In this document: in pieces, positions 52,919-56,648 of the stretch
How the letters are laid out: the number at the start of each line of letters is the position of its first letter
Position numbering within the stretch: position 1 is the first letter of the stretch
Source of the DNA: Haloterrigena alkaliphila
GTDB lineage: Archaea > Halobacteriota > Halobacteria > Halobacteriales > Natrialbaceae
Direction of reading: 5' to 3'
DNA: 64,000 bases
Assembly (NCBI RefSeq): GCF_017352155.2
Contig: NZ_CP071462.1
Coordinates: 2,914,001-2,978,000, forward strand
Program-made: the position numbers and the translations under genes
Notes under the pieces: generated by a model
Databases searched by the model: none
Told to the model about the DNA's origin: nothing
Seen by the model: only the letters and a program-made list of their open reading frames with translations

Positions 52919-52934
52919 TACTCGAGATAGAGTG
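52919..52934. promoter_or_regulatory. TrmB-like site upstream of pckA (one mismatch)
   Basis: TACT-CGAGATA-GAGTG matches the Halobacterium TrmB motif TACT-N7/8-GAGTA in all but the last base. It starts 142 bases before the pckA ATG, well upstream of the TTTATA box at 53030. In Halobacterium, sites upstream of the core promoter go with activation of gluconeogenic genes. Confidence 0.5.
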
Positions 52935-53060: not shown

Positions 53061-54572
53061 ATGTCCGAAACCGGGGCGGAGACCCGTCCGCTGGTCCGAC
53101 AGCTTCCCGATCCGACGAGCGCGTCGAACGTCCGGTACGAGCCGTCGCTCGAGGAGCTTCGCGACCTCGCGGCCGACGACGAGACGACGACCGAGTTCGG
53201 GTCGCCGTCGTACGTCAGCGAGTACCGATCGCGGAGCGCGGATCGGACGAAAAACGCCGTCGACGACGAGTTCGACGAGCGAGACGAGAAACTGGTCGAC
53301 GACGCGATCGGGCTCGCGAGCGACCGCGAGATGCTCTGCGTGGATCGCCTGATGGGTCGTCACTCGGACGCGACCTTCTGCTGTCGGCTCTTCGTTCCCG
53401 TCGAGCACGCCCGGATCGCGCTGGCGTGGGCGAACCTGTTCGAGCCGACCGACGGCCGCGAACCCGACCTGTACACGGTTCAGTGTCCCGACTACGACGA
53501 GACCGCGATCCGCGTCCTCCCCGACGAGGGCTTCACCGCGGTGCTGGGCAGCGACTACACCGGCGAGGCCAAGAAATCGTTCCTGCGCCTGTTCATGTAC
53601 CGAATCAAGGAACAGGGTGGTCTCGGACTCCACGCCGGCAGCAAACGCGTCCGCGTCCGCGACGCCGACGGCGACCTGCGCACCGTCGGGCAGGTGTTCA
53701 TGGGCCTCTCGGCGACCGGCAAGTCGACGCTGACCTCCCACGGCTGCTGGCTCGAGGACCCCGAAGACGCCTCCATGCTACAGGACGATGTCTGCGGGCT
53801 CCTGCCCGACGGCTCCGTCGCCGGCAGCGAAGGGGAGGGCCTGTTCATCAAGACCATCGGGCTGGACGCGGACGAGCAACCCGAACTGTACGCGGCCGCG
53901 ACCGACGAGTCGGCGATCCTCGAGAACGTCGCCGTCGACGACGACGGGACGGTTCACTTCGACGAGGACCGCTACACCTCGAACTCCCGGGCGATCGTCC
54001 AGCGCGAGGAACTCGAGAGCGCCGACGAGGAGATCGACCTCGATCGGATGGACCAGGTCTTCTTCATCACCCGGAACCCCCTGATGCCCCCGGTCGCGAA
54101 ACTCGACGACGAGCAGGCCGCCGTCGCCTTCATGCTCGGCGAGTCGATCGAGACCAGCGCCGGCGACCCCTCGCGGGCCGGCGAGTCGATCCGCGTCGTC
54201 GGCACGAACCCCTTCATCGTCGGTCCCGAGGGCGAGGAAGGAAACGTCTTCCAGGACCTCATCGAAACCCTCGACGTCGAGTGTTACGTCATCAACACGG
54301 GCTATCTCGGCGAGAAATCCATTGACGTCGGCGTCGAGGAGTCCGTGACGATCCTCACCGAAACCGCACGCGACCGGATCGAGTGGACCGACGACGACCG
54401 TACCGGACTGACCATCCCCGAGCGCGTGCCCGGACTGGACATCGAGGACTACTACGTCCCCGACCACGTCGACGACTACGACGCGGCCGTCGCCGACCTG
54501 CGGGCCGAACGACGCGACTACCTCGAGGAGTTCGACGAGCTCCGCGAGGAGATCAAGGACGCCGTCTACTGA
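53061..54572 (+). CDS. pckA: phosphoenolpyruvate carboxykinase (ATP)
   Basis: 503 residues. The enzyme turns oxaloacetate into PEP, the entry to gluconeogenesis. The kinase loop is GLSATGKST at 215-223; the acidic metal motif LQDDVCGLLPDGS follows, and RNPLMPPVAKL and the late VINTGYLGEKS-type segments complete the ATP-dependent family pattern. The N-terminus has a 60-residue acidic extension. A TTTATA box at 53030 lies 31 bases upstream, so the transcript is probably leaderless. TCACC-GTGGT-GGTGA lies between TATA and ATG and may be an additional operator. Confidence 0.95.
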   Translation: MSETGAETRPLVRQLPDPTSASNVRYEPSLEELRDLAADDETTTEFGSPSYVSEYRSRSADRTKNAVDDEFDERDEKLVDDAIGLASDREMLCVDRLMGRHSDATFCCRLFVPVEHARIALAWANLFEPTDGREPDLYTVQCPDYDETAIRVLPDEGFTAVLGSDYTGEAKKSFLRLFMYRIKEQGGLGLHAGSKRVRVRDADGDLRTVGQVFMGLSATGKSTLTSHGCWLEDPEDASMLQDDVCGLLPDGSVAGSEGEGLFIKTIGLDADEQPELYAAATDESAILENVAVDDDGTVHFDEDRYTSNSRAIVQREELESADEEIDLDRMDQVFFITRNPLMPPVAKLDDEQAAVAFMLGESIETSAGDPSRAGESIRVVGTNPFIVGPEGEEGNVFQDLIETLDVECYVINTGYLGEKSIDVGVEESVTILTETARDRIEWTDDDRTGLTIPERVPGLDIEDYYVPDHVDDYDAAVADLRAERRDYLEEFDELREEIKDAVY

Positions 54573-54802
54573 CCGGCTGATCCGGTCGGGGCTGTCAGCT
54601 CCTCGAACGCGTATTCCGTTCCTCGAGAGCCGACGGGCCGTGGAGTCGCCGTGTAATCGATCCGCGTTGCGCGCTCGCGAATCGCGGTCTTCCTCGTCGC
54701 CGAGGTCCTCACGCGTCCACGTATCGTGTCCTCGCCAGCGGATCGTGCATTCTCAGGCGTCGACGCGGTCGCGCTCCCGGCGATCAAATCGGCATTTATA
54801 TT
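54573..54802. other. 230-base space after pckA, no supported gene
   Basis: A minus-strand frame of 73 codons starting with TTG at 54787 ends near the pckA stop, but its composition is Arg/Thr-rich and not convincing. The right end holds the TATA element (TTTATATTT, about 54796-54804) for the gene at 54827. Confidence 0.5.
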
Positions 54803-54818
54803 TACTCAATAGCGAGTA
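54803..54818. promoter_or_regulatory. exact TrmB-type motif between TATA box and start codon
   Basis: TACT-CAATAGC-GAGTA fits the Halobacterium TrmB consensus TACT-N7/8-GAGTA exactly. It lies directly after TTTATATTT and ends nine bases before the ATG at 54827, a position that would block transcription when occupied. Confidence 0.6.
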
Positions 54819-54826
54819 TTTAGTGT

Positions 54827-55159
54827 ATGTCTTGGCAAGATCTCGTTTTCCTCTGTGGGAGCCTCCTGACGGTCGTCGCCTTGCTCCCGACGCTACGGAA
54901 CGCGAACGCGCGCATTCCGCTCGGCACGAGCGTCCCGAAACTGACCCTCGCGGTCGTCTATACCGCAACGTTCCACTCGCTGGGGATGACGTTTTCGGCA
55001 GTCGGTCTGCTCGGGACCGCCGTCGCGTGGTCGCTGGTCGCGTACTACCGCTCGCCGTCCGGTCGATTGTCGCTGCCCCGGTCCCGACCGTCGGGGCTCG
55101 AGGGTCCGGCCACCGTTGAGTCGAGCAGCGCACTCGGCCACGACGGCGATCGATTGTAG
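54827..55159 (+). CDS. three-helix membrane protein, SemiSWEET/PQ-loop-like
   Basis: 110 residues. Three hydrophobic segments (about 6-23, 36-54, 56-74) fit the three-helix unit of SemiSWEET sugar transporters; LLTVVALLPTLRNANARIPLG resembles the PQ-loop stretch (LP-Q-x3-K) with Pro kept and Gln changed to Thr. The C-terminal 30 residues are polar and Ser-rich. A perfect TrmB-type site in its promoter and its position after pckA suggest a link to sugar or gluconeogenic status. The SemiSWEET reading is an inference; the protein may instead be an uncharacterised haloarchaeal family. Confidence 0.6.
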   Translation: MSWQDLVFLCGSLLTVVALLPTLRNANARIPLGTSVPKLTLAVVYTATFHSLGMTFSAVGLLGTAVAWSLVAYYRSPSGRLSLPRSRPSGLEGPATVESSSALGHDGDRL

Positions 55160-55541: not shown

Positions 55542-55880
55542 ATGCCGACCGTCTATATCACCGCGCCGCCGAGCGACGCGACCGACATCGCCGAGACGCT
55601 CGTCGAGGAGCGACTCGCGGCTTGTGTCAATCAGGTATCGACAGCGTCGACCTATCGCTGGGAGGGCGAGATTCACCGCGATGACGAAGTCATCTTGCTC
55701 GCGAAGACGACCGAAGCGGCTGCCGACGAACTGGTCGATCGGGTCGCGGAACTCCACCCCTACGGCGTGCCGTGTATCGAGCGGTTCGAGGAGCGAGCCG
55801 TCCTCGAGTCGTTCGCCCAGTGGCGCGCGGAAAGCGTCGAGAACGCTGCCAGTACCGAAACTGGCGAGAGCGACGAGTGA
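55542..55880 (+). CDS. cutA: divalent-cation tolerance protein CutA
   Basis: 112 residues. CutA forms a tight ferredoxin-like trimer linked to copper tolerance in bacteria, with a PII-like fold. Motifs: VYITAPPSDATDIAETLVEE, RLAACVNQVSTASTYRWEGE (the conserved Cys and Trp) and VAELHPYGVPCIERFE. The C-terminus adds a short acidic tail. Convergent with the PIN-domain gene, nine bases apart. Confidence 0.94.
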   Translation: MPTVYITAPPSDATDIAETLVEERLAACVNQVSTASTYRWEGEIHRDDEVILLAKTTEAAADELVDRVAELHPYGVPCIERFEERAVLESFAQWRAESVENAASTETGESDE

Positions 55881-55889
55881 ATTCCGCCG

Positions 55890-56246
55890 CTAGTCGGTCG
55901 TCGTCGATAACTCGTCGACCCGATCGAAGCGTCCGTCCCGGTTGACGAGTCGCGCGCCGTTGTGGCGACAAACGCCGGCGATCAACACGTCGCCGAGGTT
56001 GATCGGCGTTCCGCCCTCGAGTAGTTCGGCTTCGATCACCGCGGCCTCTCGAGCGGCCCCGTCGGTCAGCGCGAGCGGTTCGATCCACTCGAGTCCGGTC
56101 ACGATCCGATCGACGCCGTCTCGGCCGGCGGATTTCGCGGCCCCTCGGTACGCTTCGAAGAGGGCGAGCGACGGGGCGCAGAACGGTTTCCCCTCGTGAT
56201 TCTCGAGGAACGTCCGGGTCGCGGGCTCGCCGTCCAGACAGTCCAC
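55890..56246 (-). CDS. PIN-domain (VapC-like) toxin, start codon unclear
   Basis: 118 residues from the GTG at 56246. Core PIN pieces are present: FCAPSLALFEAYRGAAKS with the central Glu, and GDVLIAGVCRHNGARLVNRD with the later acids. The first catalytic Asp, however, lies upstream in the frame: codons 56247-56270 read I-A-F-D-T-T-F-L before V-D-C-L-D. The codon at the expected start is ATA (56268-56270), overlapping the antitoxin stop as ATAG. Starting at the GTG would lose this Asp. Either ATA is used, or the toxin is inactive. Confidence 0.75.
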   Translation of the reverse strand: MDCLDGEPATRTFLENHEGKPFCAPSLALFEAYRGAAKSAGRDGVDRIVTGLEWIEPLALTDGAAREAAVIEAELLEGGTPINLGDVLIAGVCRHNGARLVNRDGRFDRVDELSTTTD

Positions 56247-56266
56247 GAGAAACGTCGTATCGAACG

Positions 56267-56494
56267 CTATCGCCGACGCTCACGCTCTCGCAGATCGGCG
56301 TCTAATTCGCCGCGCGTCGAATCGACGGCATCGCGGATTCCGTCGGCGTCCCTCATCGCACCGAATCCCTTCATCACGTCTCGGTCGCGATCGGTGAGAC
56401 GGAGAATCGTCTCCGTGAAACTTTCGCCCTCTCGTTTGTGCTCTCTGAGGCGATCGTACGCTTCCTCGGTGATGGTGAGGCTCTTCGTCGCCAT
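56267..56494 (-). CDS. VapB-like antitoxin
   Basis: 75 residues from the ATG at 56494. MATKSLTITEEAYDRLREHK and REGESFTETILRLTDRDRDV are typical of haloarchaeal VapB-type antitoxins with a ribbon-helix-helix-like N-terminus; the basic C-terminus (LRERERRR) would wrap the toxin. It overlaps the PIN gene region by four bases. The AT-rich promoter just upstream (GAGATCTATATCT) contains the half-palindrome expected for autoregulation. Confidence 0.86.
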   Translation of the reverse strand: MATKSLTITEEAYDRLREHKREGESFTETILRLTDRDRDVMKGFGAMRDADGIRDAVDSTRGELDADLRERERRR

Positions 56495-56648
56495 GCGTGT
56501 AGATATAGATCTCCACGTATTTCGGTCCTTCCGGAGACGACTCGAGGATCGATCCAATCCGGTCCGTGTCGGGAGGTACGTCAGACCGTCACACTCTCGA
56601 CTGCCCGAAAAAGCAACCCTTAAAACTCGCGCGCGGGTTCTGTGGGAT

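Follow-up and report, generated by a model that had tools for sequence, protein, structure and literature searches.

The closest described systems are the TrmB regulons of Halobacterium salinarum (regulator VNG1451C) and Haloarcula hispanica (HAH_1548). In Halobacterium, the TrmB motif is TACT-N7-8-GAGTA (PMC4158304, PMC3794607), and DNA binding by VNG1451C involves a Tyr-Asp pair (PMC4158304). In Haloarcula, ChIP-seq and RNA-seq identified gapII as a gene that TrmB binds and activates, and HAH_5129 of Haloarcula hispanica is repressed by TrmB (PMC10817205). The direction of control follows position: a TrmB site upstream of the TATA box activates, and one downstream of it represses (PMC4158304, PMC10817205). 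On the protein side, the family marks of the SemiSWEET half-transporters are the Pro-Gln of the PQ-loop in helix 1, Trp50, and Asn66 (PMC4309421). Within the literature collection searched, no paper linked TrmB with SWEET transporters and none linked SemiSWEET or PQ-loop proteins with haloarchaea.

We analyzed a 64-kb stretch of Haloterrigena alkaliphila DNA, referred to here as the window. Positions are those of the window, and the features of interest are the following.

52919..52934, no strand assigned: palindrome with one mismatch, upstream of pckA and probably not conserved.
53061..54572, plus strand: pckA, ATP-type phosphoenolpyruvate carboxykinase (PF01293, NF006821), a neighbor only.
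54795..54802, plus strand: TATA-like element TTTATATT, recognized from the sequence and directly adjoined by the operator.
54803..54818, no strand assigned: TrmB-type operator TACTCAATAGCGAGTA, palindrome TACTC-N6-GAGTA, between the TATA box and the start codon.
54827..55159, plus strand: 110-amino-acid (110-aa) three-helix membrane protein of a conserved family with a SemiSWEET-like predicted fold (AlphaFold model, fold matches).

A preliminary description of this DNA had placed an exact TACT-N7-GAGTA between the TATA box and the start codon of the 110-codon gene, and both points were borne out. The site at 54803-54818 matches the published TACT-N7-8-GAGTA motif exactly and is in fact a full TACTC-N6-GAGTA palindrome; it lies behind the TATA-like element and ends 8 nt upstream of the ATG at 54827. 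No other exact TACT-N7-GAGTA occurs in the window, where shuffling predicts 0.04. The TATA-like element ends 25 nt upstream of the ATG, so the transcript of the 110-codon gene is probably leaderless. Pattern searches of the whole genome listed 13 exact TACT-N7-GAGTA positions (20 strand hits), compared to 4 hits for the reversed control pattern, and several of these sites sit within coding sequence and look like chance occurrences.

The gene does follow pckA, as was first described, with a 254-bp gap between the two, but the weight given to this adjacency for function did not hold up. The pckA neighborhood was seen only in Haloterrigena, Natronolimnohabitans, and one Natronorubrum, and other members of the family lie beside unrelated genes. 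A link to pckA through its own promoter was also rejected: in the pckA promoters of 20 genomes, no site recurs at a constant position, and congeners lack the one-mismatch palindrome in theirs. We regard the pckA neighborhood as incidental. Directly downstream of the 110-codon gene lie a 63-aa HEWD-domain protein (PF20576; 55271-55462) and then CutA (55542-55880), followed on the minus strand by a two-gene pair (55890-56495) that, by eye, possibly encodes a PIN-type toxin and its antitoxin. No neighbor conserved across genera points to a substrate of the 110-aa protein.

Searches of Pfam, NCBIfam, and PDB sequences assigned no family to the 110-aa protein. A first AlphaFold model based on 29 sequences reached a mean pLDDT of 62.6, and a model based on 82 core sequences reached a pLDDT of 95.3 over residues 1 to 80 and a pTM of 0.83, with three helices. 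When this second model was compared to the PDB with Foldseek, the six best matches were all SemiSWEETs (TM scores of 0.71 to 0.76), a likeness to be read with caution, since the structure is a helical bundle and the Foldseek E-values exceed 1. In VIA-align, SemiSWEETs scored Z values of 8.0 to 8.9 over 78 to 79 residues, a plant SWEET scored 7.2, and the first unrelated chain scored 6.3. Sequence comparisons gave a different answer. PF03083 matched none of 29 members of the family and nothing in the genomes of 41 relatives, and a profile comparison with SemiSWEET sequences gave an hhalign probability of 0.4 percent. The helix 1 proline P21 never varies, but it is followed by T or A and not by the Q of the PQ-loop. 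The Trp and Asn of the SemiSWEET pocket were not recovered as a pair: W68 is invariant, which does not equate it with the pocket Trp, and none of the columns that are invariant or nearly so across the 82 sequences is an Asn. The family has a signature of its own, namely W-Q-D near the start, P21, P31, and W68, with neither the PQ glutamine nor the pocket asparagine. Thus, of the SemiSWEET-like character first proposed, the predicted fold stands, while sequence similarity, the PQ glutamine, and the conserved asparagine do not. On this model, the 110-aa protein resembles SemiSWEET in fold but is not filed as a member of that family.

These features leave considerable room for a reading in which control by TrmB is right but the protein is no transporter, for example a small regulator or an assembly factor of a membrane complex, and its likeness to SemiSWEET is due to chance. 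The missing sequence similarity, PQ glutamine, and conserved asparagine all favor such a protein, as do Z-scores that are middling for a helical bundle. It has to contend, however, with the fact that the six best matches are all SemiSWEETs, aligned over the full length and ahead of unrelated helical proteins, that the helix 1 proline is invariant, and that a carrier fits sugar-responsive control. We consider this reading quite possible, and transport by the 110-aa protein is an inference.

Homologues of the 110-aa protein were found in 110 of 125 genomes of the window's archaeal family and in 151 of 391 genomes sampled from its class. To compare their promoters, we collected 141 distinct gene copies and counted the palindrome at zero or one mismatch. 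It was present in 80 of 90 copies within the window's family and in 31 of 51 copies from other haloarchaeal families, against a rate of 2.3% in shuffled promoters. In the window's family, nearly all copies bearing the operator have it 24 to 35 nt before the ATG. In the other haloarchaeal families, it lies about 50 to 100 nt from the start codon and still adjoins an A/T-rich TATA-like block, a block that is also found beside the operator in every copy where the operator is close to the start codon. Since the operator stands next to the TATA-like block at either distance, it is tied to the promoter and not to the start codon. The window's genome encodes three paralogues, each preceded by an operator with zero or one mismatch, and genomes often hold multiple members of the family, every one of them behind a TrmB operator of its own. 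The site is thus conserved before orthologues and paralogues alike, as the preliminary description required, and the three operator-bearing paralogues suggest a function tied to carbohydrate supply. In the members read from two families, f2 and f7, the gene is present and the operator is absent; f7 has TrmB.

Outside the window's family, the gene is preceded by a mini-ORF (L119, L126, L127, L110, L118, and about 30 similar loci), mostly of 14 to 17 codons and of 25 codons in several f7 members. Its length is conserved, its peptide is not, and in most cases its TGA stop and the main start codon share bases in an ATGA. This overlap suggests translational coupling that was lost in the window's family.

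The gapII promoter offered a second view of the same palindrome. Of 29 gapII promoters in a first set, 23 had a palindrome of this type, which in nearly every case stood on the upstream side of a TATA-like element and at a single fixed distance from it. Across two sets of genomes of known TrmB status, 22 of the 29 TrmB-bearing genomes had it and none of the 23 TrmB-less ones did (Fisher, 8e-9). This value overstates the case because the genomes are related and not independent, although the trend itself is clear. When a weight matrix was derived solely from gapII sites, it recovered a site before the 110-aa gene in 67 of 70 promoters from the window's family. The palindrome lies upstream of the TATA element in gapII and downstream of it in the 110-aa gene and thus fits the position rule, under which a site of the first kind activates and one of the second kind represses.

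The window's genome encodes the TrmB orthologue that the preliminary description had called for (C1:3286227-3287288, minus strand; PF01978 and PF11495). It has the Tyr-Asp pair listed for VNG1451C, and its orthologues in the checked genomes bearing the operator share 60 to 92% identity. A second full-length homologue with both TrmB domains is encoded at C1:209594-210622, next to genes for a KDPG aldolase and a gluconate-dehydratase-like protein. The operator could be real but serve mainly another TrmB-family protein such as this one, which also has an exact TACT-N7-GAGTA site nearby. We consider this unlikely, because the second homologue carries Tyr-Ser in place of the DNA-binding Tyr-Asp of VNG1451C (PMC4158304), because the gapII site points to TrmB proper, and because several operator-bearing genomes have a single PF11495 protein, which in those examined again (G030, G036, G053, G079, G097, G122, and G191) is the orthologue of C1:3286227-3287288. 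The single-domain TrmB-family regulator OxsR was rejected as the user of the operator, since its published motif is CG-rich (PMC9426492). The genome-wide search returned further sites of note. One exact TACT-N7-GAGTA lies just before the gluconate-dehydratase-like gene (C1:208737-208752; PF13378, PF02746) and another just before a ROK-family kinase gene (C1:613212-613227; PF00480), and by their sites, both genes are plausible further targets of the TrmB type. The only perfect TTACTC-N6-GAGTAA palindrome of the genome (C1:1307874-1307891) overlaps the beginning of a short ORF, close to the gene for a 194-aa single-domain TrmB-like HTH protein.

We then asked how the operator relates to the presence of TrmB. 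Seven genomes carry the 110-aa gene and no TrmB orthologue (G028, G029, G031, G032, G127, G134, and G387), and none of their 9 gene copies has the operator, compared to 111 of 132 copies elsewhere. Genus g10 contains both states: four TrmB-less species retain the TATA element and the left half-site and have lost the right half, and G030, with a TrmB at 60% identity, has a perfect operator. That the palindrome is a core-promoter part of this gene family and no regulator's site is highly improbable, for although it directly adjoins the TATA box, a region under strong promoter constraint, the loss of the right half alone in g10 argues against it, the gapII palindrome lies on the opposite side of its TATA box, and families f2 and f7 manage without the palindrome. 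The dependence of the operator on TrmB has exceptions in f2, in f7, and in genus g24, which keeps TrmB and whose gapII site is intact, although its operators before the 110-aa gene family are degenerate. In addition, the TrmB homologue of G021 reaches only 45% identity and the gene copy read there lacks the operator, and G030 has TrmB and the operator but no gapII site. In G037, the coding sequence of the TrmB orthologue falls into two overlapping pieces that lie in different frames (G037:C2:8196-9255), through either a frameshift or a sequencing error, and the operator of the target gene (L186) is intact despite the split reading frame. Together, the gapII sites and the loss of the site where TrmB is absent strengthen a TrmB link that had been carried over from Halobacterium work, and control of the 110-aa gene by TrmB is well supported by comparative genomics. 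As the operator is found only in species possessing TrmB, the 110-aa protein is probably switched on by sugar.

Taken as a whole, the best explanation, and one we hold to be likely, is that 54803-54818 is a binding site through which TrmB represses a putative carrier of SemiSWEET-like fold until released by sugar. Without glucose or glycerol, TrmB would occupy the operator, between the TATA box and the point where a probably leaderless transcript begins, and block recruitment of the polymerase. Once sugar is available, TrmB would leave and the 110-aa gene would be expressed. The three-helix protein would then most likely pair, giving a carrier whose substrate is a sugar or a small polyol or acid that appears during life on carbohydrate. 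More tentatively, and with some doubt, the family could be a haloarchaeal SemiSWEET-fold transporter family that is induced by sugar and serves carbohydrate metabolism as a valve for efflux or uptake.

The regulator and the operator were already known; what is new is a widespread, unnamed membrane protein family as a likely target of TrmB, which would join the regulon and provides a directly testable candidate for small-metabolite transport when haloarchaea grow on sugar. Within a single genus, TrmB and half of an operator have been lost in parallel, which makes this genus a clean natural experiment in the coevolution of an archaeal regulator and its site. The family also poses the question of how much sequence divergence a SemiSWEET fold tolerates before it can no longer carry a substrate: it shares with SemiSWEET (PF03083, MtN3_slv; 4qnc, 4rng, 4x5m) three helices, a whole-domain likeness of the predicted fold, and an invariant proline in helix 1 but lacks sequence or profile similarity, a glutamine after the proline, and a conserved asparagine. 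Compared to the Haloarcula regulon, the 110-aa gene family is absent from the 15 ChIP-seq sites, and the TrmB site follows the TATA box, whereas it overlaps the BRE in TrmB-repressed Haloarcula genes (PMC10817205). HAH_5129, a sugar transporter of the MFS type, belongs to an unrelated protein family but resembles our gene in encoding a membrane protein and in having a TrmB site near its core promoter (PMC10817205). With the regulons of Halobacterium salinarum and Haloarcula hispanica, the locus has in common the operator, an orthologous regulator, the position rule, and the gapII palindrome.
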